Made by a program: the position numbers and the translations under genes. This document shows positions 5,704 through 30,221 of a stretch of DNA of 32,934 bases, piece after piece. The number at the start of each line of letters is the position of its first letter. The first letter of the stretch is position 1. This stretch comes from an uncultured Bacteroidales bacterium (lineage in GTDB: Bacteria; Bacteroidota; Bacteroidia; Bacteroidales; F082). The stretch covers positions 1-32,934 of the forward strand of contig CAMUYT010000011.1 of assembly GCA_947164955.1 (NCBI GenBank). The letters run 5' to 3'. The notes below the pieces were generated by a model. The model had not been told where the DNA came from, ran no database searches, and saw only the letters and a program-made list of their open reading frames with translations.

Positions 5704-5943
5704 ATGCATAAGGAAACGAACCAAGATATTGACTTCCACATGGGCAGGCTCATCAAGGCTGAGTTGACCCGGCAGGGGCGCACCGCCACGTGGCTGGCGC
5801 GTCAGGTGCATTGCACGCCCGAGAACATCTACAAGGTGTGCCGCCAGCAATACGTCACCATGCACCTCCTGTTCGAAATCAGCAAGGCGTTGGAGCGCGA
5901 TTTCTTCCGGGATTGCTCTTCGTATCTTGAAAGTATGGAATGA
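5704..5943 (+). CDS. Small XRE-type helix-turn-helix regulator, second copy
   Basis: 79 aa and collinear with the first HTH protein from the initial Met, which supports this start. It contains FHMGRLIKAEL, 'GRTATWLARQVHCTPENIYKV' (recognition-helix region about 38-45, identical to the first copy) and 'LLFEISKALERDFFRDCSSYLE'. Identical recognition residues suggest both proteins bind the same operator. Its stop is 19 bp before the ATG of the giant adhesin, so it is almost certainly co-transcribed with it. The HTH gene probably regulates its own operon. Alternatively it is a housekeeping-type small regulator with unrelated targets. Confidence 0.8.
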   Translation: MHKETNQDIDFHMGRLIKAELTRQGRTATWLARQVHCTPENIYKVCRQQYVTMHLLFEISKALERDFFRDCSSYLESME

Positions 5944-5962
5944 AAAATTTAAATGTAATAAT

Positions 5963-14900: not shown

Positions 14901-16171
14901 TCGAAAACTACACTTTCCTGTATTGGACCGAAAACGGGAATTACCTCTCGTCAGATGCCATCTATAGTTTCGTTGCGACATCCGACCGATCACTGGTAGC
15001 GGTTTTTGCTGGCAATGAACAAACCATGACCCTGAGCCCAGGTTGGACCTGGCTCTCATCCTATATTGAAATGGATGGCATTGATGGCCTCAGCATGTTG
15101 GAGAATGGCTTGAACCCGAATGGCGTGATGATCAAGTCGCAACGCGATGGGTTCCTGTCTTATGCCGCAGATATGTGGATAGGTACATTGGAAAGTATCA
15201 GCAACGAGAAAATGTATTTGGTTAACACGAATGAGCCGACTGACGTCACCTTCACGGGTCCTGTGGCCAATATGGTGAACCATCCCATCACCTTGAATCA
15301 CAACTGGACATGGATAGGATATCCTTCGCCATTCGCATTGGATATCAACGAAGCCTTGGCCAACCTGAATGCTATCGAAGGCGACGTGGTGAAGTCGCAA
15401 TCGAGCTTCGCCACCTATAGCGTGGAAGACGGCTGGTATGGCTCACTGAACCAGTTGATGCCAGGCATGGGTCTCATGTACCAGTCGCACAACAGTCAAC
15501 CTGTCACCTTTAATTATGGCGTGGGCATGAGCCGTGCGTTGAAGGCGAATCTCACTGCAGAGAACAACCACTGGGTGCCCGACATCCATGCTTATCCGAA
15601 CAACATGAGCATCATGGCTGTGGTGGAACTCAACGGAGAGGAGCTGCAAGACGAGCGTTATGAGCTGGCAGTCTTCAATGGCAGCGAATGCCGAGGCAGC
15701 GCACGTTTGGTTTATGTGCCCTCTTTGCGTCGTTATGTCGCCTTCCTAACTGTGACAGGTGAGGATGACGTAGAACTCTATCTCGCATTGTACGATACGA
15801 GGAAGGGGAAAGCCTATTACAACACGACGGATTGCCCGAACTTTGAGGCCAATGCGGTGTTGGGTGGCCTTAGCATGCCATTCGTGGCGCGCTTTGGCAG
15901 TGCTACCGAATTGGATGAATTGGATGTCCCGAACATCGAGCTTTATCCTAACCCGGTGGTGGCTGATCATCTCTTCCAGATGGAGATGCCAGCCGAGTGC
16001 CAAGGTGCTCGGGTGAGCATCGTCAATGCCTTAGGTGCGGTGATTTCGACCACCGATGTGTATGACGAACCTGTCACCCTGCGCGCTCCGGCCGTTCCTG
16101 GCCTCTATACGGTGAGAATCGTGACCGACAAGCAAGGTGCCTTTACCAGAAAACTGATTGTAAATAAATAA
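5963..16171 (+). CDS. Giant T9SS-exported BspA-like adhesin (LRR, EF-hand-like, InlB, LamG modules)
   Basis: 3402 aa from the ATG at 5963. A TTG 36 bp upstream in frame is rejected because MRIRFLRRKCFLFLLLMF is the signal peptide. Residues 36-1080 hold four units of an EF-hand-like motif ('NWDTDGDGELSFEEAAAVT') plus BspA/TpLRR repeats ('IPNSVTSIGDYAFA'). Residues about 1204-1449 are a FISUMP-like domain related to the upstream lipoproteins. Two LamG/concanavalin-like domains lie at about 1807-2234, each starting 'LIAYYPF.G.A.D.SG', and another lectin-like domain at about 2382-2579. About twelve divergent InlB B-repeats ('GYxFVNWTENGEEVST') are scattered, six in tandem at 2580-3015. A GWTW module (3019-3189), a YPNNM/CRGS module (3200-3312) and a T9SS type-A sorting domain ('ELYPNPV', final 'KLIVNK') end it. 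The role is probably surface adhesion to glycans or host/plant material. No catalytic residues were recognised. Confidence 0.9.
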   Translation: MRIRFLRRKCFLFLLLMFAVGLQAMATESREGNLIAFADANVKQICVANWDTDGDGELSFEEAAAVTVLGNVFQGNEDITSFDELQYFTGLTSIRDSAFSGTSLTSITLPNTVTSIGEGAFEGCTSLVSIEIPNSVTSIGERAFESCTSLVSIEIPNSVTSIGDYAFAESGLTSITIPNSVTSIGDYAFAWSGLTTITVLAATPPTIGGQAFQDVDKSIPVYVRSGSIDLFTNAEAWNEFTNFIVLTNIEFADANVKALCVANWDTDGNGELSFEEAAAVTDLGAVFQYNEDIMSFDELQYFTGITSVVFENGGFAEGCFMGCPNLTSLTLPSSVTAIGDYAFYECTSLTSINIPNSVTAIGESAFEYAGLTMVNLPNSVTSIGTSAFASCENLISVMLPDALTTIGDNVFGVCTSLTSIRIPGSVTSIGDGAFSFCMGLTSLHVGATVPPALASDVFMEVNKSIPVYVPGGTTNAYRAAEGWDEFFNYIETSIFFADANVKQICVANWDTDSDGELSFEEAAAVTDLSNVFQNNTEITSFNELQYFTGLTSIGEGAFEGCDNLNSIVLPETLTSIGGNAFSTSGPDVSSGLTSITIPNMVTSIGDGAFAGLGLNSITLPNSVTSIGINPFAGCTSLETITVEEGNTVYDSRDNCNAIIETATNTLISGCQNTIIPNTVTSIGVEAFAWSGLTSIIIPNSVTSIGDGAFGMTGLTSMTVMAETPPTLGYDPFQSVDKSIPVYVPYASLSAYEAADGWNEFTNYIGVASGDITAIAEPAEAGTVTGAGHYGYQTCTLTATAYEGYVFVRWIEIGEEVSTNAVYTFPVVGDRSLVAHFALMGNIVFADENVKTICVDNWDTDGDGELSYAEATVVTALGGVFQGNTEITSFNELQYFTGLTSIGNQAFAGCDNLNSIVLPETLTSIGGNAFSTSGPDVSSGLTSITIPNMVTSIGDGAFAGLGLNSITLPNSVTSIGINPFAGCTSLETITVEEGNTVYDSRDNCNAIIETATNTLVSGCSTTIIPNSVTAIGMYAFAYTGLTSVVIPSSVTSIGDYAFAYCTNLSSVLILNNSVEMGDEVFNGVDLPENTTISASASPADGGGSLGFDESTGLSSGAILGTFEVNMSQGTSSISINTEYVSQGSGQVSSSSPIVLVAKPNDGWQFVGWQFNGQVVSNDAFMAFRAYGSLDFEIVFDPCGVDPEPELLSGRFSISGCSSVGFARSNTKITGGADPNQMDFGLGVILGLGISGIDYAIGENQWDRMTYDENDFSGSLFETMADGWDLYPALLLKGGVGCWHIPTWREWDYLINHRETVSGMRFAFGTVNEVSGLILLPDDWVASTFTLNNVNEVADYTNNSIDAPTWTTVLEPAGAVFLPTNGYVLNGQWIQETSDGSAVGAYPGLFISTNGELAGQSGFPMTGSATLMLDMMLLSGDGFAGTSIRLAKVMESSTATITLTANNSEWGTVTGGGVVECRQSCTVSANASDGYVFLHWLEGNEVVSIDPVYSFTALGDLDLTAVFAPADEVCQVVVEVNTMSQSNVFATLGMFGVGITLSFDDGTPTYYLPFASTPEELDYFSLLLLSGSSSQAQNSSVQFSINTPRGVQIQLDQFVPDALNAIGTLMSNLTYTVSYVDGATIVENSSELPYNFLCNCADITLLVDPEEGGYIETDDVLNIGETVTLTAIANYGYTFVNWTFNGVEVSTEPSFVFEVTEGGEMVAHFELSNYAIQASTNPSEGGTVTGAGTYAYGSECSLTATANEGYDFVNWTENGVVVSTEIEYSFSVTSNRNLVANFEEEITLPIPTESLIAYYPFNGNANDESGHGNHGTLQGDTPQLTTDRFGNANSAYMFGGYNNQGWVYVPNSSSLQLNNAMSMSFWMNLSGYDGMDGWGSYSTNANFAIICKEGDRNGFSTCVNKHEDGRLNINSWNNNGSYGINTYQEYTLGEWMHCVVTIEDNLSKIYINGVLQQDNIKNQVDFSNANNCNMYIGIMRAGNMWYPFNGKIDDIALYNRALTPMEVNQLYGLNEDLIAYYPFDGDAYDYSGNQYHATPYNIYQYEEGLIGDCIAVEGQGYTGSSGGHVMLPELDFGASTSFTLNLWVKALGLSHNDGESYINFGDDNETDRLYIMQHPDQIRFAYHEAEISIPKEDSFTDNWVMYSLTLDENGILKAYVNGASVGEESVTFNGINTSLAALGRHWWSGTSHSSRFIGSFDEVRIYGRALTSAEVQMLYLINHRVNAVANPNEGGTVSGAGRYHHGVMITLTATSNEGFTFLNWTENGEEVSTENSYSFTVTGNRDLVANFALNYYDITATVTPSGAGTVTGTGTCSHGSQCTLTALANEGYAFSAWIENGEVIATDNPYTFTVTSERSLEASFIYPLPMIADDFNDGIINQQLWMATGTHVVEEDGLLKLQQNVTDNYTALESQPLSVPVDNKIVINREFILHEQLHNSSWGNHYFYGNVNVKLNGSNDNYIGVCYYDDDYENRHGTYIRTQLNGEVTETRICDAIFDAWLTETVILDLSNELLTYILGENLISTISIPNLSSQQLNYYTVRFKPDGWWTGHYHNMNYVNISTEPNAVYTITAQGTPIGAGQVYGGGDFSLAEACTLTAIPSEGYAFSAWIENGETVSTDAVYGFTVTGERSLVAVFLPTYVITAEANNADYGTVTGGGTFMDGETCSLTATPNDGFGFVAWTEDGETVSTDAIYNFTVTSERNLVAVFLPTYEIAIVANDENYGSVTGGGTYVLNESCMVTATPAEGYHFVNWTENGDEVSTDAEYTFTVTNSRDLVANFALNYYDITAEAEPEEGGMVMGAGTYGHGSECTLTATANYGYHFVNWTLDGSVVSTEPNYTFTVTSAGDYTANFQLNNYTINASANPSEGGSVSGTGNYDHGTDCTLTVTANVGYTFVNWTLDGVEVGTEPTYTFTVYGEATYVANFSLNLYEITAITNPVEGGTITGAGNYYHGDECTLTATPIENYTFLYWTENGNYLSSDAIYSFVATSDRSLVAVFAGNEQTMTLSPGWTWLSSYIEMDGIDGLSMLENGLNPNGVMIKSQRDGFLSYAADMWIGTLESISNEKMYLVNTNEPTDVTFTGPVANMVNHPITLNHNWTWIGYPSPFALDINEALANLNAIEGDVVKSQSSFATYSVEDGWYGSLNQLMPGMGLMYQSHNSQPVTFNYGVGMSRALKANLTAENNHWVPDIHAYPNNMSIMAVVELNGEELQDERYELAVFNGSECRGSARLVYVPSLRRYVAFLTVTGEDDVELYLALYDTRKGKAYYNTTDCPNFEANAVLGGLSMPFVARFGSATELDELDVPNIELYPNPVVADHLFQMEMPAECQGARVSIVNALGAVISTTDVYDEPVTLRAPAVPGLYTVRIVTDKQGAFTRKLIVNK
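6338..6441 (+). repeat. 69-bp-period leucine-rich-repeat DNA duplication
   Basis: A 35-base stretch at 6338-6372 recurs exactly at 6407-6441, one 23-residue LRR unit later. It encodes 'SLVSIEIPNSVT'. The same CCCCAACTCGGTGAC core recurs at many other LRR units in this gene (for example near 7831, 8055, 8868 and 9033). Nucleotide identity beyond what the protein requires points to recent unit duplication. Confidence 0.85.
7639..7935 (+). repeat. Perfect 297-bp intragenic direct repeat, copy A
   Basis: Base-by-base comparison shows this segment to be identical to 8683-8979, at an offset of 1044 bp (348 codons). It covers several LRR units and the 'VYDSRDNCNAI' stretch. Identity is perfect at third codon positions too, while the flanks immediately diverge (CATCGAAACT versus TATTGAAACC on the right), so the duplication or conversion is recent. 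Confidence 0.95.
8683..8979 (+). repeat. Perfect 297-bp intragenic direct repeat, copy B
   Basis: Second copy of the segment at 7639-7935. Between the copies lie the end of one LRR block, an InlB repeat (about 8272-8475) and the fourth EF-hand-like unit. The duplicated unit is therefore larger than the perfect core, and its outer parts have already drifted. Confidence 0.95.
12991..13029 (+). repeat. 39-bp exact direct repeat left of the third lectin-like domain
   Basis: The 39 bases at 12991-13029 encode EGYAFSAWIENGE with flanking bases and are identical to 13813-13851 (offset 822 bp). Both copies are the centre of an InlB B-repeat. Together they bracket the lectin-like domain encoded at about 13110-13700. 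Confidence 0.9.
13813..13851 (+). repeat. 39-bp exact direct repeat right of the third lectin-like domain
   Basis: Second copy of the element at 12991-13029. The pair suggests that the intervening domain was inserted with duplication of an InlB repeat, or could be deleted by recombination between copies. Confidence 0.9.
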
Positions 16172-16185
16172 ATACCATATAAGAG

Positions 16186-19100
16186 ATGAGAAAGAATATC
16201 CTTTTAGCAATTTTCATGGCGGTGTCCATCCATTGCAATGTCTGGGCTGCTATTGACCTGGATAAGCATTGGAACTGTGATCCCTCGCTCTATCCTAACA
16301 ACATGACCGTTGTAGGTGTTGTCAAAATTGACGGCGTGGAGCAGAGCAGCAACGCCTTGGAGGTGGGTGCCTTTTGTGGAACGGAGTGCCGAGGTAGCGA
16401 AAAACTGAAATACTTCAGTCAAGTGGATCGTTATCTGGTGTTTATGACCGTTTATGGCAATGACAACGATGCCATCAACTTCAAACTCTATGACCATGGC
16501 ACAGGGCAGGAATTGGATGCCTACGTCGATGGCCTGACCTTCGAGACCAACGCCATGCATGGTCTGCCTACCGCCCCATACGAGTTTAACTTCATCCCGT
16601 ATTACACCGTTACGGCGGCCGTCAACCCGACGGGTACGGCTTCAGTTTCGGGCGCAGGGCATTTACTGGCCCACACCAACGTGAGTCTCACGGCCACGCC
16701 TCACACAGGCTACCGTTTCGTCAACTGGACGGAGAATGGGGTAGAGGTGGGCACTGAACCAACGCTGCAGTTTGAGTTGCTGGGAAACCGCTCTTTTGTA
16801 GCCAACTTTGAGATGATCATGCATCATGTCAACGTGAGCGTCAATGACGCGAACAAAGGCACGGCCACAGGCGCGGGCGACTTCCAGGAAGGAACTATGG
16901 TGACCGTTTCGGCCACGCCCAACACAGGCTTCCAATTCGACAACTGGACCGTGAATGGTGAAGTCGTATCCACCAATGCCACCTATACCTTCCAGATTTG
17001 GGAAGACAGGAACTTGGTGGCCAATTTCTCTATACTTCAAATCCATATCAATGCTAGTAATTCTCCTTACAATGGTGGTTCTATCTCAGGCGCTGATTCC
17101 TATGACTATGGTAGTCTTGTGACACTGACTGCTCGTCCTGCCAACAATTATGTCTTTGATAATTGGACCGAGAATGGGGCCTTTGTTTCAGCAGAACCAT
17201 CTATCAGTTTTACTGCGTATAATAATCGGACTTTTGTTGCTAACTATCATCTCGTGCTCCCCGAATTGCATATTACTAGCCTTTCTCACTCCGACTTTAT
17301 TGCTGGCCAGCAGGCTACGGTAACCTGGACGGTACAAAATGATGGTACAGCACCAACGCCTAATGGCGAGGTGTGGTACGACAGAGTTTGGCTGTCGGTG
17401 GAAAATCGTGTGGCGGCTGGTGATAATAATCCGAGATTATTAGGTGAATTTGCCAACATTGCTGCTTTAGCCCCTGGTGAGTACTATACCCAGACGCAAA
17501 CAGTAGATGTTCCAATTAATTTTAGCGGTCCATACTTTCTTTTTGTCATCACAGACGCATACGATGCTCACCATATTTATTGGATAGACGACGAGGTCCC
17601 GATTCCCTATAATCCCCCTCCGTATGTTGTAGCTGATAGTCACCATTGTACAGGAGGAGATTGCGGCAATATTGCAGGGAATAAAATACGAGAGTTATCT
17701 GAACTTAGTAATTTCCCATACACGCACGACAACTTATTCTATGACTATCTGACTATTGAAGTGCCGCCTTTGGCTGACTTGCAGGTGACCTCCATCATCG
17801 CTCCTGATAATATCTATTCTGGCACTACGGTCTCCGTGGTGGCGACCATCACCAATACGGGCAATGCCCATACTGATGTCGGCCAATGGAGTGATGCTTT
17901 GTATGTGTCACAGTCGGATGTGTTTGACGGAAATGCCATCCGAATTGGTACTATCCAACATAATGGCATCTTGGCACCAGAGGAATCATACGAAGTCACC
18001 TTGACAGGGACGGTTCCACTGATCTGGTATGGTACAGCATATTTTTACGTGGTTACCGATATCTATGGTCAGGTGTATGAGCATGTTGCCAACGACAATA
18101 ATACTTCGCGTTCACATGCAGTTAATATCATCTTGACCCCTCCGGCCGACTTGATTCCTACCAACATCACGATTCCATCCCAGATAAGCACTGGGCAACA
18201 ACTTTCTGTTTCGTATACGGTGTATAACCAAGGTGCAGGCAATCCGAATGTGAACTCGTGGTGCGACAAAATCTACCTGTCGTCCAACCCCAATGTCTTG
18301 GAGAATCCCATTGAACTGAAAACCGTCAACCATTACAATGGCTTGGCATCCAATGCCACCTATACGGTGACCGAATCCGTATGGCTGCCTGCTTCGGTAA
18401 CTACTGGTAATTATTACGTTTATGTGACAACGGATGCTAACGAAGAGGTCTTCGAATACATTTATGAAGACAACAATATCTTGAGAAGCACAGCTGCCTT
18501 GAATGTGATTCAGCCCGATTTGACCGTCAGACAAATCACCGCGTCGAGCACCATGACGGTCGGCTATCCCGCTTCCATCCGCTATGTCTTAAGGAATGGA
18601 GGCAATGGTTTGGTGGAAAACATTTCTGTAACCGACCATATATTGATGTCGCCCAACCCCGATATGAGCGATGCCATTCAGGTAGCAGAGGAAACGCATA
18701 CCTTGAATCTGCCGAGACTAAGAACCAGCACTTTCAATTGCAGTGTTATCCTTCCTGAAATGGATGAAGGCACCTATTACTTGTTTGTGCTTACTGACGC
18801 CGAGAACGCTGTCAACGAATCGAACGAAGGAAACAACAGTTTGTCGAAATATCCGGTCACCGTGAATCACCAACCTTTGCCTGACCTGATTCCGACAGCC
18901 TTTACTATCCCGAGCGAGATAGAGGCAGGAAGTGTCGTTGCAGTGGAGTTTGATGTTTCCAATCAAGGTGATCTTGCCCTCCTCAATAGCAACTGCGCCA
19001 TGGAGGTCTACGCCATACAGAACAACCATGAAATCCTTTGCCCCATGCAGACCCAAACCGCACCTGCGGTGGGCAATATTTCTATCCAGATGAATGCTTC

Positions 19101-21732
19101 CTTGCATTTCAGCCAGACCATCCTCATCCCCGCCAACGTCACTTCGGCATGCAACACTTTCGTGCTGAAAGTGGATGCGCAGGAAACGGTTGCCGAATTG
19201 GATGAGACCAACAATGCCATGACTGCCAATGCGACGGTGACAGACTGCCCGCTTCCCGACCTGACGGTAAGCAACATTGTCCTGCCCGATGGCGTACAAG
19301 CAGGTGGCACGGTTGCCGTGGCGTTCGACATCAACAATAGTGGCGAGGCTCCTCTGGTAACCACCGATCTTCCCGTTGCAGTCTATGCCCTTGTGAATGG
19401 GACAGAGGTCCTCTGCCCGTTGCAAAGCCAAATCGAACCGGCACAAGGTGAAGCCATTCAATTGGCGGTAGGCGAGTCCTTCCATTTCGTGCAAAACGTG
19501 TTGGTGCCGCCTACCATCGAACCTACATGCACACAAATGCGGGTGACCGTTGACCCCAACAACACCCTCTTTGAAACCAATGAAAGCAACAATAGCACCA
19601 CGGTTGCGGCCACAATACTTGACTATCCCTTCGACCTGAAGATACTATCCATTGACTTCCCCTCAGAAGTCACCGCAGGACAAACCTATTCCATTTCGTA
19701 CACCGTTAAAAACATTGGAACATGCCCGTCAGAGGATATCCCCATGTTTGTTAACAGGTATGGCAATTATTACCAAGTGCTCAACGGTAATCTTCCTAAT
19801 CCTTGGATCGACAAGGTGTATTTTTCAACGGATCAAACCATCAGCAATGACGATGTCTATGTTGTTACCAACCAGCGTCAGGTGGTTTTGAATCCGGACG
19901 ACACCTATACGGTTACCGCCAATATCATGGTGCCCTATTCGATGCTAGGCAATCCCTATCTGATTGCGGCAACCGACTGCACCCATTTTACAACCAATTA
20001 TTTAACCTACGATATGAACCGTGCCAACAACCAAGCCAGCCAGCAGTTGACCGTGTTGTTGGGCGAGCTGCCTGATTTGAGAATCACCGCAATGGATGTG
20101 AATCCTGTGCTGACTGCTGACCAATCCTATACCATCAGTTACACGGTCATTAATGAAGGGGAGTGCGCCACAACACAAAGCACGTGGAAAGACGTGTTTT
20201 ACCTGAGTGCTACGGAAGGAAATATTTCGGGCGCATACAGATTAGGCGAATGTACGCATCAAGGCGTTTTGGCAGTTGGAGAAACCTACGAGGCTACACT
20301 GAATGTGACGATACCTTCATCTGTCTCCGGAGATTATTTTGTCATTGGATATACTGATGCCACCTCACTGGTTTATGAGCACGACAACGAGGACGACAAC
20401 ATGACCAGTGTCCCCGTGACGGTTATGCTGCCCTTGCCTTGCGACTTGATTGTCGTGGCTCCGTCTTATCCTTCCACAGCCATATCAGGCGATGATATCA
20501 CGGTCTCCTGGACCTTGTTCAACACAGGAGACAATCCTGCCCAAGGACGCATCAGGGATGCTGTTTACCTCTCATCGGACAATGACTGGAGTAGCGATGA
20601 CATCATGTTAGGTTATGTTGAGAATAATGTCAATATAGCGCCCAATGGTCAACAAGATTTTGAGATGTCGACCACCATTCAAGGTGTTCCTCATGGCAGC
20701 TATTACCTTATCATCAAGACCAACATCCTCAATGCCTTGAACGAGGCCTCGTATGACAACAACGCTTGCACCGGGCCATTACCCATCGATGTAGATTATC
20801 CCGTGCTGGCCATCGGTTCCAGCGTTGACAGGACCATGGGCAGCAACCAGTATATCTACTATAAGATAGAGGTTGGACCTGAGTACGAGCATCAGACCCT
20901 ATCGTGCCATTTGATTACCACCTCATCGTATCCCGGCAATGGTTTGTATATCGCTTACGAGAATGCACCTTCGATGTCGCAGTTCGATTTCTCGATGAAT
21001 ACTCCATACGAACAGGATTTGGAGATTTTGATCCCTTCGTTGGAGCAAGGCGAGTATTACCTGCTGGCCCGTGGCAGTGCCGAAGATAATCAGCCGCAAA
21101 ACGTGACCATCTCGGCTGAAATCATAGATTTCGAAATCCTGCATATCAATGCAGACCATGGCTCCAACACGGGCTCGTTGACCACTCAGGTGCTTGGTGC
21201 CAAGTTCGACAGCATCATGGACTTCCGCCTGGTGCAAGGTGGTGAGTACATGCCTGCCGAGAAGGTTTTCTTCAGCAACTCCACCGAGTCGTTTGTCACC
21301 TTCGACCTCACCGACCTGCAAGCAGGATTGTATGACGTCGAGGCTGAGCTTCCTGGTGGCGTCATCACCATCAAGGACGGTGCCTTCACCGTTGAGGAAG
21401 GTCTGCCTGCCGAACTCTCGGTGAACATTATTGCCCCTTCAAGTGTTAGAAGCGGTAATACCTTTACGGTGAATATTGAATATGGTAATATCGGCACCAC
21501 GGACTTGAATGTCTCAGGCTTGGTGGTAGTAAGCCAAAACGGCCATTATATCTCACTAGACTCAGATGGTTTGGCGGAACAATCGACACAGCTCTATTTT
21601 GAGACTGCAGAGCCCAATGGTAACCCAGATGTTCTACGTCCAGGGACCAGGGCGACACGATCTATCTTTGTTAGAGTCAATAAAAATGAAATGATTCGGA
21701 TTGGCGTATTTGCCGTGCGTAACATGTATTGA
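16186..21732 (+). CDS. Large secreted CARDB-repeat protein
   Basis: 1848 aa, starting 14 bp after the giant adhesin stop. Signal peptide MRKNILLAIFMAVSIHCNVW. Residues 24-138 are the YPNNM/CRGS module ('YPNNMTVVGVVKIDGVEQ', 'GAFCGTECRGS'). Three InlB B-repeats follow (about 138-355). About nine CARDB-type immunoglobulin-like repeats span 356-1535, with recurrent 'DL....I..P....G....V.Y.V.N.G' and 'D....V.E..E.NN'. Next come a PPC-like jelly-roll (about 1545-1640), an IPT/TIG-like segment (about 1645-1745) and a last CARDB-like unit. There is no T9SS sorting domain, unlike the neighbours. The protein stops after 'EPNGNPDVLRPGTRATRSIF', a point where related giant RHS proteins, as I recall them, continue. 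Its codon usage becomes more AT-rich at about 17035-17760. Role is probably structural at the cell surface. Confidence 0.85.
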   Translation: MRKNILLAIFMAVSIHCNVWAAIDLDKHWNCDPSLYPNNMTVVGVVKIDGVEQSSNALEVGAFCGTECRGSEKLKYFSQVDRYLVFMTVYGNDNDAINFKLYDHGTGQELDAYVDGLTFETNAMHGLPTAPYEFNFIPYYTVTAAVNPTGTASVSGAGHLLAHTNVSLTATPHTGYRFVNWTENGVEVGTEPTLQFELLGNRSFVANFEMIMHHVNVSVNDANKGTATGAGDFQEGTMVTVSATPNTGFQFDNWTVNGEVVSTNATYTFQIWEDRNLVANFSILQIHINASNSPYNGGSISGADSYDYGSLVTLTARPANNYVFDNWTENGAFVSAEPSISFTAYNNRTFVANYHLVLPELHITSLSHSDFIAGQQATVTWTVQNDGTAPTPNGEVWYDRVWLSVENRVAAGDNNPRLLGEFANIAALAPGEYYTQTQTVDVPINFSGPYFLFVITDAYDAHHIYWIDDEVPIPYNPPPYVVADSHHCTGGDCGNIAGNKIRELSELSNFPYTHDNLFYDYLTIEVPPLADLQVTSIIAPDNIYSGTTVSVVATITNTGNAHTDVGQWSDALYVSQSDVFDGNAIRIGTIQHNGILAPEESYEVTLTGTVPLIWYGTAYFYVVTDIYGQVYEHVANDNNTSRSHAVNIILTPPADLIPTNITIPSQISTGQQLSVSYTVYNQGAGNPNVNSWCDKIYLSSNPNVLENPIELKTVNHYNGLASNATYTVTESVWLPASVTTGNYYVYVTTDANEEVFEYIYEDNNILRSTAALNVIQPDLTVRQITASSTMTVGYPASIRYVLRNGGNGLVENISVTDHILMSPNPDMSDAIQVAEETHTLNLPRLRTSTFNCSVILPEMDEGTYYLFVLTDAENAVNESNEGNNSLSKYPVTVNHQPLPDLIPTAFTIPSEIEAGSVVAVEFDVSNQGDLALLNSNCAMEVYAIQNNHEILCPMQTQTAPAVGNISIQMNASLHFSQTILIPANVTSACNTFVLKVDAQETVAELDETNNAMTANATVTDCPLPDLTVSNIVLPDGVQAGGTVAVAFDINNSGEAPLVTTDLPVAVYALVNGTEVLCPLQSQIEPAQGEAIQLAVGESFHFVQNVLVPPTIEPTCTQMRVTVDPNNTLFETNESNNSTTVAATILDYPFDLKILSIDFPSEVTAGQTYSISYTVKNIGTCPSEDIPMFVNRYGNYYQVLNGNLPNPWIDKVYFSTDQTISNDDVYVVTNQRQVVLNPDDTYTVTANIMVPYSMLGNPYLIAATDCTHFTTNYLTYDMNRANNQASQQLTVLLGELPDLRITAMDVNPVLTADQSYTISYTVINEGECATTQSTWKDVFYLSATEGNISGAYRLGECTHQGVLAVGETYEATLNVTIPSSVSGDYFVIGYTDATSLVYEHDNEDDNMTSVPVTVMLPLPCDLIVVAPSYPSTAISGDDITVSWTLFNTGDNPAQGRIRDAVYLSSDNDWSSDDIMLGYVENNVNIAPNGQQDFEMSTTIQGVPHGSYYLIIKTNILNALNEASYDNNACTGPLPIDVDYPVLAIGSSVDRTMGSNQYIYYKIEVGPEYEHQTLSCHLITTSSYPGNGLYIAYENAPSMSQFDFSMNTPYEQDLEILIPSLEQGEYYLLARGSAEDNQPQNVTISAEIIDFEILHINADHGSNTGSLTTQVLGAKFDSIMDFRLVQGGEYMPAEKVFFSNSTESFVTFDLTDLQAGLYDVEAELPGGVITIKDGAFTVEEGLPAELSVNIIAPSSVRSGNTFTVNIEYGNIGTTDLNVSGLVVVSQNGHYISLDSDGLAEQSTQLYFETAEPNGNPDVLRPGTRATRSIFVRVNKNEMIRIGVFAVRNMY

Positions 21733-21745
21733 TAATGATAATAAT

Positions 21746-24700
21746 ATGAGAACAATGAATAAGAGACTTATCCTTTTAACCTTGTCACTCTTAACAGTGA
21801 CGATGCTTCAGGCACAGAATATCATCCGCCCCAAGGTGGAATGTCCCAACGGCATCTATGTGAACAGCTATAACGGTGTGCTGTTCTACCAGCGTCCCGA
21901 TGTGTCGGTCGCCAACCGCAACATGAGGCTTGAAGCTGTGTTCTACTACAACAGTTCCTCCAACAGGAAGAACTATGGCTACGGCAACGGCTGGAGCTTA
22001 GGCTCGGAGCTGCGTTTCGTCAATGACTCGTTGGGCGTTATCATCGAGCAGGGCGACGGTCGTCAAGACCTCTACACCCGTTATGGCAACAGTTTTGAGG
22101 CCCCAGCTGGTGTGTTCAGCGCATTGAGCTTCGAGGGTGATGGCTATTTGCTCACCTATAAGGACGGCACCAAATACTATTTCACCGACACGGTGAGCAA
22201 GAAGGTGACCCAGGTGAAGGACCGTTACGACAACGCCATCACCTACACCTATCAGGAAGGCAACTTGGCCACGGCCTCCGACATCAGCGGGCGATCCTTG
22301 TATTTCGCTTGGAGCAACGACTTGTTGAGTGGCATCAGCACCTCGTTCGACGACCGCACTTGGAGCTATCAATACGACGAGAACGGCAACCTGACGGCCG
22401 TGACCGACCCGATGGGTTACACGGTGCATTATGCCTACAACAAGGACAACCGCATTAAGACCTTCACCGATGCCGAAGGCTATTCCACACATATCAGCTA
22501 TAACACCGACGGCATGGCGCATCGTGTGAAGACCGACCTTACAGACAAGTCGATACGTTACGAGTTGGCCAAGCGACAGACCATCTTTATCGATTATTTG
22601 ACAGATGCCAATAATCAATACACAAAATACGTATGGGACGAGCAGGGTAGATTGGTTGAAATTGAGAACGTCAACATGGGCACTAGTACCAAATTTGCCT
22701 ACGACGACGACAACAATCTGGTTTACCGTGAAGATGCAAATGGAAACGCCTATATTTACACCTATGATGAAAACGGCAACCGTACCTCTGAGACTGACCC
22801 TTTGGGGTATACAGAGACATACACTTATGAGAGCTCTTTTAATAAAGTTACATCCTATACAGATAAAATGGGGCATTATTACAATTATCAGTACGATGAA
22901 TTTGGAGACCTATTACAGATGAATGGACCTTTGAATTATACAATTAGTTTGACTTACAATCAATACGGGCAACCTCTTACTGTAACAGATGCGAATGGTA
23001 ATGTGACTCATTATGTGTATGATAATTATGGGAATCGGACTTCCAAAACTGACCCATTGGGGAATGTGACGACCTATACTTATAATTTGGCTGGTATGAT
23101 ACTTACGCAGACAGAACCAAACGGAGCGGTAACGACGCTTGTTTACGACAACTCGGAATGTCTTGTTGAAGCCATAGATGCATTTAATTTCAGCACTAAA
23201 TTACAGTATGATCGCAAAGGTAATTTGATTGGTTATACAGATGCGCTAAACAATACTTTTACTATGTCTTACGATGCTATTGGGCAAATAGTTTCGCTTT
23301 TATCACCAAATGGGAGTAATAGTCGTTATGGGTACATAGGAAAAAGGATGGTTGCTTATATAGATGCCAATAATAATGAAACAACATACCAATACGATGA
23401 TAATAATAGAATTATAAAGGTTATTAATCCCAACAACAAAACCATACAAATTAATTACGATAATATTGGCAATATTGTAGAAAAAGTGATGCCAAATGGG
23501 CAAGTGGTAACGATGCAATATGATGCAGCTGGTCGTGTTGTTTCTTCATCAGACCAATTGGGAACATTTTATGTTTATCAATATGATGGAAATGGTAATG
23601 TCATTCAGATTAACGATGAATTAGGGAATCCTATTTGTTTATATTATGATGCATTGAACAGACTGATTCAGATAAAGGATGCCATGAATTATTCAGAATA
23701 TTTTACTTACGATAATAATGGCAACTTAATTACATATTTGGATAAAAATGGGAATGCTGCGATTTATTCATATGATGCTAATGGCAACTGCTTGACGTAT
23801 ACAGATGCCATGAATAATGTGACATATTATGTCTATGATGCAAATGGAGATTTGTTGTCTATTACAGATGCAAATGGAGCTAGTACAACTTACGAGTATG
23901 ACTTAAAAAGAAAATTGAAGACTCTTACATTTCCTGACGGGAGAACGCGTAAGTTCTGGTATGATGCTATAGGAAACAAGATTCTTCAGGAAAATGAAGC
24001 AGGAGAACAAGTGGCGTTATCCTATGATGCCAACAATAGGTTAATAGCTATGAATTGTGTGGGTAATTCTAACGATGATTGTTATTATACATATGACTTT
24101 GCTGGTAGGTTAACAAGTGCCACCAACCAATATGCGTCTTCAGTTTTTTCATATGACCGTGAAGGTAGATTGCTATCGGAATCAACGAACGGATTGTTAA
24201 CATCCTATGCTTATAATGATGTTGAAGGAACAATTAGTATTACATATCCTAGTGGACAACAATTGTCGCAAAAATATGATGTTCGTTCAAGACTTTCTTT
24301 TATCAAAGAAAATAATACACAATTGGCATCATTTATGTATGACAATGCAAATCGAATTTCATGTAAAGAATACGCCAATGGTGTTGTTACCAATTATTTC
24401 TATGATGCTAATGGACATATTGTTCAATTGATGGATAATCAAAATCTTGTTAATTATGAAATTGAATACGATGCTGTAGGTAATCTGGTCGTGAGAAAAG
24501 ACAATGTCCATGAAGAGTCTAGTCAGGTTTATACCTATGATGCATTAAACAGACTGATTAACTATAGTAAAGGTGTTTTGGATGGGAGTAATCAAATACC
24601 TAATCCAGCACAAAACACTCAATTTGTGTTAGATGGATTAGGGAATCGTGTCCAGGTAATCAATAATGGTGAAGCATTTAATTACACTACTAATACAACA

Positions 24701-25930
24701 AACGCTTATACATCAATTATTGGCGATGGTTATAGTCAATATTTGACATATGATGACAAAGGTAACCTTTCAAATGATGGGACTCATACTTTTCAGTACG
24801 ATTACTTTAATAGATTAGTAAGTATAGATGAGGGAAACTCCGTATCGTACAAATATGACGCCCTTGGTCGTATGGTTCAGCGTCAAACTCAAACGTTGGA
24901 TGAAAACTTTGTTTTTTCAGGTAATCGGATAATAGAAAATAGAAACAGTGTCGGAGAATTGTCCTCATCATTTATTTATGGTCAAAACTCCAATGACGTT
25001 ATCAGTTCTACATTGGGTACTGAATCTTATTATTTACAAAAAGACCAATTCGGTTCTACAATAGCTTTAATTGACAATAATGCAGCTGTTAGGGAACAGT
25101 ATAGTTACGATCCTTATGGCAATACTGTTTTTTATGATCAAATGGGTAATCAAATAACGGGGTCTTCTTTGAATATGCCGATTTTGTATGGTGGTCATTA
25201 TTTAGATGACATTTCACTGTCATACCAAATTTCTGAACGTAATCTGCAACCTAGTTTTGGTAGATTTTCTGAAAAATCTGCTTTAGTTTATGCTGGATCG
25301 ATGAATAATTACGAATATCACAATAATAATCCACTAGACCCATCCGATCTTCTTCATACTAGCTTATCAATTGGTTCTAATTTTCTTGAACAAGTGGGAG
25401 GCTTTTTTGGAGGAGAAACCGCATTGGAGCTTACTAATTATTCTGACTGGCTTAGTGGTTTAGATGCTGTGGTGAAAACAACAGAATTATGGGAAACCCT
25501 GAGTAAGGGGACTGCTAGTTTCGAAGAAGAAGTGGGCCTTATGACTGAATATGCGGGAGGTATTCTTATACCTGCCATGATTGGTGCTGCAATAGGAAGT
25601 GTGATCCCAGGAGCAGGGACAGCAGTTGGTTTTGTGATTGGACTTGGAGTTGGACTCGTTCTCGATTTCGTTGTGACACCTCTTGTTGAAAAGGCAAGCA
25701 ATTGGGTGGGTTCTAAAATTGGTAAAGGAATGGATATTTTTACGGATATTCGAGAAGAAAAATGTGAGCAATTCAAACAAAATGGTTATGCCAACTCTAG
25801 TATTGCGCAACAAACTTTTGCAGATGTAGTGAATCATCCATTAAATGTAGTTGGTAACGCATGGAATTTAGGAAAGAGATTATTTAATTACGGTTATGGA
25901 TTAGGAGAAAAATGGTTCCCAGTTAATTAA
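21746..25930 (+). CDS. Exported RHS/YD-repeat protein with a variable, glycine-zipper-like C-terminal domain
   Basis: 1394 aa from ATG 21746; an alternative ATG at 21755 gives the same signal peptide (MNKRLILLTLSLLTVTMLQA). It starts 13 bp after the CARDB stop. The N-terminal RHS region contains 'YVNSYNGVLFYQRPD' and 'GNGWSLGSEL'. Dozens of YD repeats follow ('YDENGN.....DPLG..T.Y.Y'), which in this family form a hollow beta shell. The core motif is degenerate: 'FGRFSEKSALVYAGSMNNYEY' at about 1172 and 'NPLDPSDLL' at about 1195. The last about 200 residues are unique, with a Gly/Ala-rich hydrophobic stretch at about 1269-1311 ('GAAIGSVIPGAGTAVGFVIG') and 'NWVGSKIGKGMD'. GC falls sharply after about 22590. 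No small immunity gene follows. It could be a polymorphic toxin or a structural shell; I cannot decide. Confidence 0.85.
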   Translation: MRTMNKRLILLTLSLLTVTMLQAQNIIRPKVECPNGIYVNSYNGVLFYQRPDVSVANRNMRLEAVFYYNSSSNRKNYGYGNGWSLGSELRFVNDSLGVIIEQGDGRQDLYTRYGNSFEAPAGVFSALSFEGDGYLLTYKDGTKYYFTDTVSKKVTQVKDRYDNAITYTYQEGNLATASDISGRSLYFAWSNDLLSGISTSFDDRTWSYQYDENGNLTAVTDPMGYTVHYAYNKDNRIKTFTDAEGYSTHISYNTDGMAHRVKTDLTDKSIRYELAKRQTIFIDYLTDANNQYTKYVWDEQGRLVEIENVNMGTSTKFAYDDDNNLVYREDANGNAYIYTYDENGNRTSETDPLGYTETYTYESSFNKVTSYTDKMGHYYNYQYDEFGDLLQMNGPLNYTISLTYNQYGQPLTVTDANGNVTHYVYDNYGNRTSKTDPLGNVTTYTYNLAGMILTQTEPNGAVTTLVYDNSECLVEAIDAFNFSTKLQYDRKGNLIGYTDALNNTFTMSYDAIGQIVSLLSPNGSNSRYGYIGKRMVAYIDANNNETTYQYDDNNRIIKVINPNNKTIQINYDNIGNIVEKVMPNGQVVTMQYDAAGRVVSSSDQLGTFYVYQYDGNGNVIQINDELGNPICLYYDALNRLIQIKDAMNYSEYFTYDNNGNLITYLDKNGNAAIYSYDANGNCLTYTDAMNNVTYYVYDANGDLLSITDANGASTTYEYDLKRKLKTLTFPDGRTRKFWYDAIGNKILQENEAGEQVALSYDANNRLIAMNCVGNSNDDCYYTYDFAGRLTSATNQYASSVFSYDREGRLLSESTNGLLTSYAYNDVEGTISITYPSGQQLSQKYDVRSRLSFIKENNTQLASFMYDNANRISCKEYANGVVTNYFYDANGHIVQLMDNQNLVNYEIEYDAVGNLVVRKDNVHEESSQVYTYDALNRLINYSKGVLDGSNQIPNPAQNTQFVLDGLGNRVQVINNGEAFNYTTNTTNAYTSIIGDGYSQYLTYDDKGNLSNDGTHTFQYDYFNRLVSIDEGNSVSYKYDALGRMVQRQTQTLDENFVFSGNRIIENRNSVGELSSSFIYGQNSNDVISSTLGTESYYLQKDQFGSTIALIDNNAAVREQYSYDPYGNTVFYDQMGNQITGSSLNMPILYGGHYLDDISLSYQISERNLQPSFGRFSEKSALVYAGSMNNYEYHNNNPLDPSDLLHTSLSIGSNFLEQVGGFFGGETALELTNYSDWLSGLDAVVKTTELWETLSKGTASFEEEVGLMTEYAGGILIPAMIGAAIGSVIPGAGTAVGFVIGLGVGLVLDFVVTPLVEKASNWVGSKIGKGMDIFTDIREEKCEQFKQNGYANSSIAQQTFADVVNHPLNVVGNAWNLGKRLFNYGYGLGEKWFPVN

Positions 25931-25950
25931 TCAACGAAAACACTATAGCT

Positions 25951-28356
25951 ATGAAAAACAGAATATTATTAGTATTGTTGTTGTTGGCTTTATTCTATGA
26001 GCCAATCCAAGCACAACGAAGATTATTTGGTTGGGTAGAGTGTTACCAAGGCTACCAGGAACGCGAAGCCGAAAAACAGCGAATGCTTGACGAAATGGCT
26101 GCCGCTGGCATCGACATAGAAGTGCTTCTTGCCAGTGACCCCAATGAGATCATAGGCACAACGGGCTATGATGATTCCAATAGTACCGATACCTTACGCT
26201 GGGTCTCAGCCACGCAAAGTCTGCCTTATACCATTTATTTCGAGAACAATCCCGAAATAGCTACGGCTGCGGCACAGCGGGTGGAGATTAGGCACCAGAT
26301 TCACCCCTTGAGTAACCTGGCCACCTTCGGCATAGGCACCTTTGGCTTCGGTGAACATGTCTTCGCCGTGGAAGGCAGCCCCTCCAACTACCAGCAGCGC
26401 CTCGACCTCACAGCGTCCATGGGCATCTATGTGGATGTGGTGGCCGGCGTGGACGTGGTCAGCAACGAGGTGTTCTGGATTTTCCAAAGCATCGACCCGG
26501 AGACAGGCTTGGCACCACAAGGCGCCGAGCAGGGTTTTCTGCCCGTCAATGACGAGGACCACAGTGGCGAGGGCTACGTGACCTTCACCATCAAACCCAA
26601 GACTCCAGCATGCTCCACCGGTGATGAAATCACGGCCTCAGCTTCCATCGTGTTCGATGTCAATGAAGCCATCGGCACCAATGTGTGGACCAACACCATC
26701 GATGCCGTGCCGCCTACCACTCAGGTGACGGGCGAAGAATTGGCACCGAATGAGTTGTTGCTTCAGTTCTCGGGGCAGGACGACGAGGAAGGCTGCGGCA
26801 TCAAGCAATACAAACTCTATGTGTCGGACAACTATGCCGCATATCAGCTTTACGACACCTATCCTGCGGGATTGGAAGCGACCTTCACTACAGAATACAA
26901 CCACTGCTATCGCTTTATCAGCCTCGGTGAAGACAATGTGGGCAATGTGGAAGAGATGAAGAATGAACACGACTTTGAGTATGGCAACTACAACCTTGTC
27001 GTTTCGGCTGTGGCTTCACCCGAAGAGGGGGGCACCATCACGGGTGCGGGCACCTACGTGTACGAATCGGAAGTGACCCTCACCGCCATCCCCAATACGG
27101 AATATGTGTTCAGACGCTGGACGCTGAACGGCGTTCCTGTTTCGGAGGAAGAGATCTATACCTTTGACATCCATGAAGACATGAGTCTGGTGGCCGAGTT
27201 TGTCCCCGCTAGCCTTGTCGAATTGCAATACGACCTGGCCGAAGGATGGAACTGGTGGAGCACCTGCATTGACCTTGCGAATAATGGTTTGGAGAATGTG
27301 GAAAATGCGTTAGGTTCTATTGGAATTAATATCAAATCACAACGCAATGGCTTTGTCATGAACGATGATGGCGATTGGTATGGTAATTTGGAGGAACTTG
27401 ATAATCAATCCATGTATATGGTGTTGACGAATGAGCCTTCAACGATTAACCTCACGGGCCTTCGAGTAAACGCCTCCCAACTCAAGATAGAACTATCGAC
27501 CAATTGGAATTGGATTGGTTATCCCTTAAGCACCACACAGTCGGTAACAAATGCCTTGTCTCAACTGGATGCCGATGATGGTGACATGATCAAATCCATG
27601 CAAAACTTCTCTGTTTATGATGGAGAAGATGGATGGTTTGGAGCTTTGCACAACCTGAACCCTGGAGAAGGCTACATGTATTACGGTCAACAACCTCATG
27701 ACCTCTATTATACAGAAAGTAGAGGTTGTATCGATGAAGAATCGGCAGAAACCACCAATTGGAAATCCAACATTCACACATACGCCAACAACATGAGCTT
27801 GGTGGCTGTGGTTTCGCTCGACGACGAACTGCTGCGTTCTGAGAGCTACGAGGTGGCCGCCTTCAGCGATGGTATTTGCCTAGGCAGTACCCGTTTGCTG
27901 TACAATGACCGTCGCGACAGCTACTATGCCTTATTACCTGTTTCGGGTGAAGAGAACTTGGAGGTTACCTTCAAGCTCTATCGTTCCGATGCTGGATATG
28001 AATATCCTGGACAAGCGGATGAAACCTACGGTTTTGTCATCAACGGCATATATGGAAGCCTTGATAAGCCTGTGACCTTGCATTTCCATGGCAACACAGG
28101 AGTGCAGGAAATGGCGTCCGAGTTGCGTCTCTTCCCCAATCCTGTGAAGAAGGGCGGGGAAGTGCGTCTTGAGCTGCCTGATAACGACGGTCCGGTGCAT
28201 GTGGAAATCTATAATGCGTTGGATGTGTTGGTCGACACCCAGATCATGGATGGCGCTACACTCCGTCTTAGCAAGACCTTGGCCTCGGGCATCTATGTCA
28301 TCCGCGCCCAAGGCACATCCGACAGGGTTTATTATGGCAAACTAATCGTTCAATAA
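25951..28356 (+). CDS. T9SS-exported protein with DPNEIIG module, InlB repeat, GWNW and YPNNM modules
   Basis: 801 aa, starting 20 bp after the RHS stop. Signal peptide MKNRILLVLLLLALFYEPIQ. Residues about 35-250 carry 'SDPNEIIGTTGYDD', 'LPYTIYFENNPE', 'YVDVVAGVDVVS', 'FWIFQSIDPETG' and 'SIVFDVNEAI'. This module otherwise occurs, as I recall, in very large CARDB/RHS proteins of planctomycetes and cyanobacteria. Residues about 250-340 are an Ig-like region, 350-425 one InlB B-repeat, 425-590 the GWNW module ('GWNWWSTCID', 'NWNWIGYPL'), 595-715 the YPNNM module ('YANNMSLVAVVSLDDELL', 'ICLGS') and 720-801 a T9SS type-A sorting domain ('RLFPNPV', terminal 'KLIVQ'). The signal-peptide region is AT-rich like the RHS 3' end, and the rest is GC-richer. 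Role unknown; the domain order suggests a surface partner of the two preceding proteins. Confidence 0.85.
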   Translation: MKNRILLVLLLLALFYEPIQAQRRLFGWVECYQGYQEREAEKQRMLDEMAAAGIDIEVLLASDPNEIIGTTGYDDSNSTDTLRWVSATQSLPYTIYFENNPEIATAAAQRVEIRHQIHPLSNLATFGIGTFGFGEHVFAVEGSPSNYQQRLDLTASMGIYVDVVAGVDVVSNEVFWIFQSIDPETGLAPQGAEQGFLPVNDEDHSGEGYVTFTIKPKTPACSTGDEITASASIVFDVNEAIGTNVWTNTIDAVPPTTQVTGEELAPNELLLQFSGQDDEEGCGIKQYKLYVSDNYAAYQLYDTYPAGLEATFTTEYNHCYRFISLGEDNVGNVEEMKNEHDFEYGNYNLVVSAVASPEEGGTITGAGTYVYESEVTLTAIPNTEYVFRRWTLNGVPVSEEEIYTFDIHEDMSLVAEFVPASLVELQYDLAEGWNWWSTCIDLANNGLENVENALGSIGINIKSQRNGFVMNDDGDWYGNLEELDNQSMYMVLTNEPSTINLTGLRVNASQLKIELSTNWNWIGYPLSTTQSVTNALSQLDADDGDMIKSMQNFSVYDGEDGWFGALHNLNPGEGYMYYGQQPHDLYYTESRGCIDEESAETTNWKSNIHTYANNMSLVAVVSLDDELLRSESYEVAAFSDGICLGSTRLLYNDRRDSYYALLPVSGEENLEVTFKLYRSDAGYEYPGQADETYGFVINGIYGSLDKPVTLHFHGNTGVQEMASELRLFPNPVKKGGEVRLELPDNDGPVHVEIYNALDVLVDTQIMDGATLRLSKTLASGIYVIRAQGTSDRVYYGKLIVQ

Positions 28357-28391: not shown

Positions 28392-30221
28392 ATGAAAAAT
28401 GTTATTAAGCTGTTAACTTTGGCGTTGTTGCTATCGGCTTCCCTCAGGTCTTTTGCTGATGGCGAACACTGGACATGGAACCATAACCTGTATCCCTTCA
28501 ATGCCACCTTTGTGGCAGTCATCAACCTTGATGGCGTGGAACAACGCAGTGACCAACTGGAGATAGGTGCTTTTTATGATGGAATCTGTCGTGGTAGTAT
28601 CATTTGTGAATATGAGGAACGTAAAGACCGCTATTTCGCTTACCTCACTATCAATGGAGAAGATGGTATGGTCATGAACTTCCGTTTGTGGGACCATGAA
28701 ACGGATAGCGAGCTGGATGTGACTTGCAGCGCGACATATACCTTTCATGGCAATGATCAGTTTGGCAGGCCCAGCTCACCATACGTGTTTTACTTTATTA
28801 CTAATCCAAAGCAAATTGTCTTCAATGGCATCGTCAATGAACAATGGTCAGTGGCAGGCAACTGGGAAGGCAATGCCCTGCCTGCCGAAGGTGACATAGC
28901 CATCGTCAACGCCCCTTGTCAACTCGATCAGGATGCAGAAGTGCTTCAACTGGTCGTGAACGACGACAAGTCGCTGACAATTACGGAAGGTCACACCCTT
29001 ACGGCAGGCAGTATCGAAAGCAATGCCGCCACCAAACTTGTTGTTGCTGATGGAGGACAACTGGTGTGCGACAATAGGGAAGGCGTGTTCGCCACGGTAC
29101 AGAAGTTCGTGGAAGGCTACGGCGAGGGTTCCGACAAATGGTGCTTCATTGCTTCGCCCTTAGTGGAAGAGATGGCCCACGCAGATGTCGGCAACCTCGT
29201 GAATGAAGAGGGCTATGACCTCTATGCCTTCGACCAAGCTGCATCCGATGGCTTGGAATGGCGCAACTTCAAGGACAACACTTTGACGCTAAATCCAGGT
29301 GAGGGCTATCTTTACGCCAATACTGCTAATGCAACGCTCGAGTTTGCGGGCGAACTCAATAGCACGGTAGATAAAGTTAGTTTGAGTTATGGTTCTGACT
29401 ATACCCAGGCGGGGTGGAACCTTATCGGCAATCCCTATACCCGTAATGCCTATGCTGACAGAAGCTATTATGTATTGGATGAGGATGGTGCGGCCTTGAA
29501 TCCTATCGCCGCATCCGAGGCCGTAGTTATCAAGCCTTGCACGGGTATTATGGTGAAGGCTTCTGCTGAAGGAGAAAAGGTCAGTTTTAGCCCTAATGCA
29601 CCGAGCGGTAGCAAAGGCAACCTGAGGATGCTGGTTTCGTCAGCTAGTCGTAGTACCTCATCCGATTGTGCCATCGTCAGTTTCAATACCAACGATGACT
29701 TGGCCAAGTTTGTCTTCCATAGCGGTGGTCCCAAACTCTCCATTCCCCAGGGAGAAAAAGAGTTTGCCATCGTTTCCGCTGAGAGAGAAGGTGAAATTCC
29801 TGTTAATTTCAAGGCTGGCGAAAACGGTAACTACACCATTAGTGTCAATGCTTCGCATGTGGATATGGACTACCTGCATTTGATCGACAATCTTACGGGA
29901 GACGATGTGAATCTCTTGGAGACACCGAGTTATTCCTTCAATGCCCGTGTTGCCGACTATGCATCAAGGTTCAAGATTGTTTTCATTTGCGGAGACGGCC
30001 CTTCGACAGACTCAGAGACCTTTGCCTATTTTAATGGCATGGAATGGGTTATCGATTATGAGGGCGAAGCCGTACTTCAGATGTTAGATGCAAAAGGGCG
30101 CATCGTCTTTAGCAAAGATGCTGTACATCGTGTCACTACGACGGGGATGGCTCCTGGTGTATATATGTTCCGCCTTGTATGTGGCAATGATGTAAAGATG
30201 CAAAAGATCGTAGTTAGATAA
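28392..30221 (+). CDS. T9SS-exported protein with N-terminal YPNNM module
   Basis: 609 aa, 35 bp after the previous stop. Signal peptide MKNVIKLLTLALLLSASLRS. Residues 24-137 are the YPNNM module in variant form ('YPFNATFVAVINLDGVEQ', 'GAFYDGICRGS'). Residues about 140-230 look like the 'W....NW......P...D..IV....' segment that begins many Bacteroidota beta-rich surface proteins ('WSVAGNWEGNALPAEGDIAI'). Residues about 230-420 hold two Trp/Gly-rich stretches ('WCFIASPL' and 'GWNLIGNPY'), reminiscent of the GWNW module in neighbours. The C-terminal about 75 residues are a T9SS-type sorting domain ('AVLQMLDAKGRIVFS', 'PGVYMFRLV', final 'KIVVR'). No enzyme motif was seen. The stop overlaps an ATG by one base, but the next gene more likely starts at 30248. 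Confidence 0.85.
   Translation: MKNVIKLLTLALLLSASLRSFADGEHWTWNHNLYPFNATFVAVINLDGVEQRSDQLEIGAFYDGICRGSIICEYEERKDRYFAYLTINGEDGMVMNFRLWDHETDSELDVTCSATYTFHGNDQFGRPSSPYVFYFITNPKQIVFNGIVNEQWSVAGNWEGNALPAEGDIAIVNAPCQLDQDAEVLQLVVNDDKSLTITEGHTLTAGSIESNAATKLVVADGGQLVCDNREGVFATVQKFVEGYGEGSDKWCFIASPLVEEMAHADVGNLVNEEGYDLYAFDQAASDGLEWRNFKDNTLTLNPGEGYLYANTANATLEFAGELNSTVDKVSLSYGSDYTQAGWNLIGNPYTRNAYADRSYYVLDEDGAALNPIAASEAVVIKPCTGIMVKASAEGEKVSFSPNAPSGSKGNLRMLVSSASRSTSSDCAIVSFNTNDDLAKFVFHSGGPKLSIPQGEKEFAIVSAEREGEIPVNFKAGENGNYTISVNASHVDMDYLHLIDNLTGDDVNLLETPSYSFNARVADYASRFKIVFICGDGPSTDSETFAYFNGMEWVIDYEGEAVLQMLDAKGRIVFSKDAVHRVTTTGMAPGVYMFRLVCGNDVKMQKIVVR

Follow-up and report, generated by a model that had tools for sequence, protein, structure and literature searches.

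A putative gene-split giant surface protein of Bacteroidota with an exchangeable middle and a single T9SS tail

Comparison with relatives gives good support to the view that three consecutive genes of an uncultured, gut-type Bacteroidales bacterium encode a giant modular surface protein in a conserved multi-gene form, its middle being exchangeable. On balance we favor the further reading that these genes represent a giant modular surface protein split over separate genes, whose products would assemble in the periplasm and whose third product would take or tether the complex by its tail. The stretch of DNA analyzed here (the window, 32,934 nt) is one whole contig of a 2.39 Mb genome that is 72.8% complete, and the named relatives closest to it are Bacteroidales MAGs, one of which is titled as coming from yak reticulum. 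A sequence-only reading of the window had proposed a giant RHS-type protein split into three exported proteins with gaps of 13–20 bp between their genes. The three open reading frames were confirmed at the stated places and with the stated domains (Table 1), with gaps of 13 bp between genes 1 and 2 and 20 bp between genes 2 and 3, all on the same strand. The same reading had assigned a signal peptide to each gene and a T9SS sorting domain to the last protein only; signal-peptide-like N-termini are indeed found on all three (read by eye for gene 1, by a simple test for the other two), and among the three TIGR04183 matches just gene 3.

Table 1. Features of the three-gene locus and its neighbors (positions in the window)
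Feature	Positions	Strand	Description
Upstream neighbor (P0005)	5927..16171	+	3414 aa; repeats and T9SS tail; ends 14 bp before gene 1
Gene 1 (P0001)	16186..21732	+	Exported stalk protein, 1848 aa; signal peptide, ~110-aa module, 3 InlB B-repeats, CARDB repeats, conserved end domain ("cap")
~110-aa module, gene 1 N-terminus	16264..16596	+	45% identity to P0004 N-terminus (28464–28799)
CARDB-like repeats	17257..20796	+	Pfam, 7 stretches; 9 units marked by eye
Cap domain (p1ct)	20791..21672	+	P0001 1536–1829
Gene 2 (P0002)	21746..25930	+	Exported RHS protein; start ATG 21746; signal peptide, DUF6531, YD repeats, RHS core, C-terminal tip
RHS tip	25352..25927	+	P0002 1218–1409; hydrophobic, glycine-rich
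Gene 3 (P0003)	25951..28356	+	Exported clamp/anchor protein, 801 aa; signal peptide, DUF7619-type domain, InlB repeat, T9SS type A tail
DUF7619-type clamp domain	26131..26727	+	P0003 61–259
T9SS type A sorting domain	28129..28353	+	TIGR04183, 28.7 bits (cut-off 23 bits)
Downstream neighbor (P0004)	28392..30221	+	609 aa; T9SS tail; starts 35 bp after gene 3

Domain content of the three proteins

The CARDB repeats of gene 1 are matched by Pfam with an E-value of 8e-65, and its cap is predicted as an all-beta domain (single-chain model, pLDDT 94.7); profile comparison gives weak matches for it, one to a metalloprotease chain (2luw, E 0.005) and one to a DUF4352 chain (8q30, E 0.002). The clamp of gene 3 matches Pfam DUF7619 (E 1.2e-14; 55 bits against a cut-off of 27), and its single-chain model (pLDDT 94.1) finds its best solved matches, at modest TM-scores, in pilin SpaD and AgI/II domains, some of which hold isopeptide bonds, as well as in Cna-type domains (TM up to 0.54 of target) and Ig/Fn3 chains. 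DUF7619 is given as a predicted isopeptide domain in the accessible part of one source (PMC12617251). The window clamp has the Pfam match and resembles isopeptide-type domains of pilins and adhesins in fold, if also Ig/Fn3 chains, whereas the columns of its Lys/Asp/Asn triad read I67, H115, and A229. The triad is retained in 4 of 114 aligned clamps, a set that leans towards loss because one of the two search patterns demands Ile at the place of the isopeptide Lys. Linking of the parts by DUF7619 isopeptide bonds is not supported, since the triad is lost. Both neighbors carry T9SS tails, and in one relative (L044) a P0004 homolog likewise sits 3′ of gene 3. The C-terminal ~500 aa of P0003 (26860–28353) and P0005 (3′ end) are 36% identical, and from this likeness the anchor half of gene 3 looks exchangeable too. 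A stretch related to the ~110-aa module of gene 1 precedes the T9SS tails of P0003 and P0005 (by eye); the module, for which no Pfam name was found, could be a docking part.

Gene 2 belongs to the RHS/YD-repeat proteins by its tandem YD repeats and RHS core: Pfam finds RHS_repeat in 14 stretches (E 1.2e-102) plus DUF6531, and Rhs_assc_core matches at 32.3 bits, slightly below its cut-off of 32.5. Among 60 genomes searched with P0002, its own included, two others hold a match of about 50% identity and a further two a weak one; its own genome also contains a second RHS-related ORF (L290, G000:C7), which spans 2274 aa and has a signal-peptide-like start. RHS polymorphic toxins carry DPxG autoprotease motifs near the core end, and the corresponding stretch of the window reads NNNPLDPSDLL (by eye). 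The match to the solved Rhs protein 7q97 stops at P0002 1212, right before the tip. The tip, which shows two G-x3-G-x3-G steps and a Pfam DUF6861 match of 19.4 bits, under the cut-off of 28, looks membrane-active. Like known RHS polymorphic toxins (7q97, 8h8b, 8qja, Tse15, Tse5), the protein combines a YD-repeat shell and DUF6531 with a core whose tip is swapped in relatives. Unlike them, it has a Sec-type signal peptide and no PAAR/VgrG match, its gene is flanked by a cap gene on one side and a clamp gene with a T9SS tail on the other, and an immunity gene directly 3′ is absent, the clamp gene following after 20 bp.

The three-gene order of the window occurs in 5 of 99 genus genomes (its own, G035, G017, G416, and G406), at the window and at loci L044, L045, L088, and L089. 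The RHS cores of L044, L045, and L088 are 92–94% identical over 1173–1185 aligned residues, and their ends (last 220 aa) are unrelated (24–26% over 19–172 aligned residues); between the window and L089, identity is 63% in the core and 33% in the tip. The core end was located by its motif for the window and L089 only; the last 220 aa were taken as the tip for L044, L045, L088, L112, and L113, where this motif was not found. Judged from these alignments, the RHS protein shows the polymorphic-toxin trait of a conserved core with an exchanged C-terminal tip. Among 18 RHS ends scanned with Pfam, the end of L088 alone gives an above-cut-off match, to Peptidase_M23 (E 1.3e-11); L112 gives a weak Lipase_3 match below the cut-off (E 0.015), and the L045 end contains CxxHDxCY, seen by eye only, which we take to resemble a phospholipase A2 motif. 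The RHS tip probably acts on the envelopes of neighboring cells. A plain adhesin or matrix complex, in which RHS and thrombospondin-3 parts serve as stalk elements and not as effectors, would fit the clamp's fold matches to pilins and adhesins and the middle parts other than RHS, which look structural by eye. That near-identical RHS cores bear unrelated ends, one of them an M23 peptidase, speaks against this explanation and leaves it doubtful, although the best placed of the alternatives to a split surface protein with exchangeable cargo.

Split and fused relatives

Within the genus, the clamp domain was found in 20 of 99 genomes, the window's own included, at 23 places, all regions of which were read. 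The sequence-only reading would have been refuted had the three genes rarely adjoined in related genomes or had fused homologs been lacking; neither proved to be the case, and the genes adjoin in relatives of the genus and in further Bacteroidota, so that their order is no product of chance. At seven loci (L090–L096), a cap gene comes first and a tailed clamp gene last, with two other genes for exported proteins in between, one of which encodes thrombospondin-3 calcium repeats; most other loci of the genus hold a partial cap and the clamp in a single ORF. An annotation or assembly artefact is ruled out, since the same order with signal peptides recurs in many genomes. Joining of the parts by frameshift or read-through is not favored because the parts begin with signal peptides.

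Fused homologs, which the sequence-only reading had expected, exist. CARDB repeats, cap, RHS, and clamp (the order CARDB–RHS–DPNE) stand in single ORFs in genus g73 (L049–L051 in G343, L052 in G157), in Nostoc sp. FACHB-973 (L184), in an Anaerolineae MAG (L145), and in a "Clostridia" MAG (L155); for L184 and L049, a Pfam check bears out CARDB, RHS_repeat, and DUF7619. Such giants had been expected in cyanobacteria and planctomycetes, which holds for Nostoc; in the two planctomycete homologs found (L173 and L185) cap and clamp are fused, but the RHS-repeat profile finds no RHS repeats between them. Intermediate forms, with a cap gene followed by a fused RHS–clamp gene, are seen in L061, L183, and Spirosoma L116, and Pfam finds RHS_repeat, DUF7619, and a T9SS tail in L183. 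Thrombospondin repeats are fused between cap and clamp in Roseithermus (L053/L175) and in L174.

The survey comprised 115 clamp ORFs after removal of 6 duplicates; as the set was gathered by the clamp and sampled selectively (the best 80 of 175 confirmed loci from the species-genome collection; 18 of 20 regions of one early set hand-picked from matches with a split-type match), its counts describe linkage given a clamp and not prevalence. With a cap required to cover at least 120 of 295 profile positions, cap and clamp share an ORF in 54 cases (8 with RHS, 2 with thrombospondin repeats, 44 other; 15 of these 54 caps are partial). In 52 cases the cap lies on a separate upstream gene of the same strand ending within 9 kb, with a middle consisting of RHS fused to the clamp (3), separate RHS (13), thrombospondin (12), or other parts (24). 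No cap is in view in the remaining 9, of which 8 have <500 nt upstream and one (L106) is truly without a cap. Interrupted copies are L060 and L177, each with an in-frame stop, and L107 and L144; L060 is counted as fused, the other three as split. Exported thrombospondin-3 repeat proteins hold the RHS slot in L090–L096, L118, L121, L123, L136, and L143.

These counts bear on the explanation that the three genes encode co-expressed but independent proteins, two of them periplasmic or otherwise exported beside a T9SS surface protein and tied to it by shared regulation. In its favor, the neighbors P0004 and P0005 are also closely packed, each with a tail of its own. Yet cap and clamp form one polypeptide in 54 of the 115 ORFs and the cap lies on an upstream gene in 52 more, and exchange affects the middle parts whereas cap and clamp are retained, so that mere co-expression appears unlikely.

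When cap and clamp are combined in one tree (88 rows), the split loci, 48 in number, come out as a single clade (SH-aLRT 98), with L177 apart; 15 fused loci with a partial cap, as well as L055, L107, and L144, stand outside this tree. The split or fused state needs two changes, one of which is the broken L177, a single frame interrupted by a stop with no signal-peptide-like start after it and most likely a broken fused gene. With labels that leave out L177, L107, and L144, the split loci occupy one side of one branch in the cap-only tree (SH-aLRT 96; 48 split vs 39 fused), and the clamp-only tree needs three changes. Outgroup rows that keep two isopeptide residues (D/N) are fused in 14 of 16 cases, a rooting that is imperfect in that 1 of the 16 falls on the wrong side. 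As this outgroup, though not clean, is mostly fused, the trees favor one old fission, by which a giant surface protein became an operon in one Bacteroidota clade (48 loci). Rows left out were L107 from A3, four from A4, and 7 of the 59 middle ORFs from A5; near copies were left out of A6 and A7, and A7 also lacks L177 and one further L181 stretch.

At least 10 changes of middle type are required on the tree if "other" is taken as one class. Judged from this distribution, the middle is a swappable slot for RHS, a thrombospondin-3 pair, or other parts, between a cap and a clamp that stay. In a quick RHS tree (34 rows), 14 of 15 split-operon RHS proteins group with the standalone RHS of L217 and L218 (98), and the 8 fused RHS proteins fall together (100), joined by the split L116 (98); this tree carries letter-composition and long-branch warnings, and the window row was flagged for odd composition. 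RHS was probably recruited into the slot, since 14 of 15 split RHS proteins group with standalone RHS, apart from the fused giants, and the tree suggests that RHS entered it more than once. The plain form of the original proposal, a single giant RHS protein cut in three, is not favored by the RHS tree: fused giants do exist, but what was split is a general protein of CARDB–cap, middle, and clamp–tail, the middle of which need not be RHS.

Export signals and tailed neighbors

The simple signal-peptide test is positive for 48 of 52 clamp genes, 49 of 59 middle ORFs, and 16 of the 21 cap genes with their 5′ end in view. As controls, 15 of 2000 stretches from inside fused proteins test positive, and none of 20 junctions from 10 fused proteins. 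The TIGR04183 tail is found in 39 of 48 clamp genes and in none of 51 cap genes or 52 middle genes; two of the 9 clamp genes without this match have matches to other secretion signals. The window's own genome encodes SprA and holds 122 T9SS tail matches. A joint function on the periplasmic side, with stalk and RHS as periplasmic factors and just gene 3 reaching the surface, would agree with the absence of the tail from all 103 cap and middle genes. It is the least probable of the alternatives and rather improbable: in tailed fused forms (e.g., L053, L056) cap and middle lie in the tailed chain and hence share its destination, and CARDB/InlB stalks are typical of outside proteins. Cap and clamp distances correlate at 0.67 in split and 0.33 in fused forms (permutation maxima 0.25 and 0.29); neither this correlation nor the conserved neighborhood proves contact, and shared descent explains part of it.

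In Flavobacterium johnsoniae, the interior of the SprA pore binds the CTD, from which CTD-first substrate exit is inferred by the authors in the available part of their study (PMC10994853). Gene 3 resembles the type A substrates described there in having a signal peptide and a C-terminal type A CTD, whereas genes 1 and 2, which have neither a TIGR04183 nor another CTD match, have the signal peptide only. The T9SS is described as moving folded proteins in the accessible portion of a review (PMC9251779); in the part of the literature searched, no account was found of a CTD-less partner carried via the T9SS. Tat hitchhiker export, as far as the same review text covers it, is similar in that a signal-bearing subunit carries a signal-less partner, but the Tat system is an inner-membrane route, while in the present case each partner has a Sec signal of its own and the signal lent would be the CTD. 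For TANFOR polymorphic toxins of Bacteroidetes, the excerpt consulted (PMC7073777) supposes T9SS export and leaves it as a hypothesis. These toxins share a signal peptide, C-terminal toxins, and proximity to CTD-bearing genes with the present locus; they differ in their N-terminal domain, and the present locus is further set apart by the existence of a fused counterpart of the neighbor set and by a tail on one gene alone.

Twelve further RHS loci were hand-picked, two of which (L224 and L225) belong to the fused cluster. At seven of them (L219–L222, L226–L228), an RHS gene without a detected tail is directly followed by an exported protein (ORF length 151–440 aa) with YD-type strands and a T9SS tail, the signal peptides of all seven and the YD strands of L219, L227, and L228 having been assigned by eye. 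In L217 the next gene is tailed and lacks YD strands, L218 has a tailed gene 1.4 kb downstream, and L223 has no tailed neighbor. The small YD-plus-tail proteins look like another tail carrier and are possible export adaptors. Among 30 control loci with an RHS core from 296 genomes, which end ~1.5 kb after the core, 3 are cluster loci and 1 of the 27 others (L275, the same gene as L217) has a tailed gene, a lower bound given that the local tail profile is less sensitive than TIGR04183 and missed at least one tail (L061). A tail-bearing neighbor as a general rule for RHS genes is not supported by this count. An adaptor profile (A8) run on the 296 genomes retrieved mostly tails alone among the matches listed; 7 short ORFs among these match from the YD part on, 6 of them the profile's own and one new (L289), with no RHS gene directly upstream.

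A proposed assembly and its meaning

In the assembly we propose, gene 1 would supply a stalk ending in the cap, gene 2 the cargo slot, here filled by an RHS shell with an exchangeable tip, and gene 3 the clamp with its anchor. Each part would cross the inner membrane through its own signal peptide, and association via cap, cargo, and clamp would most likely take place in the periplasm. The single T9SS tail of gene 3 would then take the complex through the outer membrane or hold it there; a bound partner could follow the tailed substrate through the T9SS. Separate genes would leave a free C-terminus to both the tip and the T9SS signal, and a cargo on its own gene could for this reason exchange its RHS tips without touching that signal. 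It is reasonable to suppose that the three parts reassemble; we infer the assembly, the carriage and export route by the clamp tail, and an effector role or toxicity of the tip. The tail-less parts could also stay in the periplasm.

More tentatively, Bacteroidota might carry CTD-less cargo, RHS effectors included, non-covalently on a T9SS-tailed partner, with the old split having made the cargo exchangeable and the YD-plus-tail proteins being a second invention; we hold this possible but would not yet lean towards it. The locus bears on the way in which Bacteroidota export large proteins, among them polymorphic toxins without a tail, and offers a testable answer, namely that a partner lends its T9SS signal. 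The pattern hints that one of the parts may bring a toxin-like, exchangeable cargo to the surface of the cell. The findings also suggest that a giant surface protein was split once, long ago, into the genes of an operon, which then became modular, its cargo exchanged between fixed ends.
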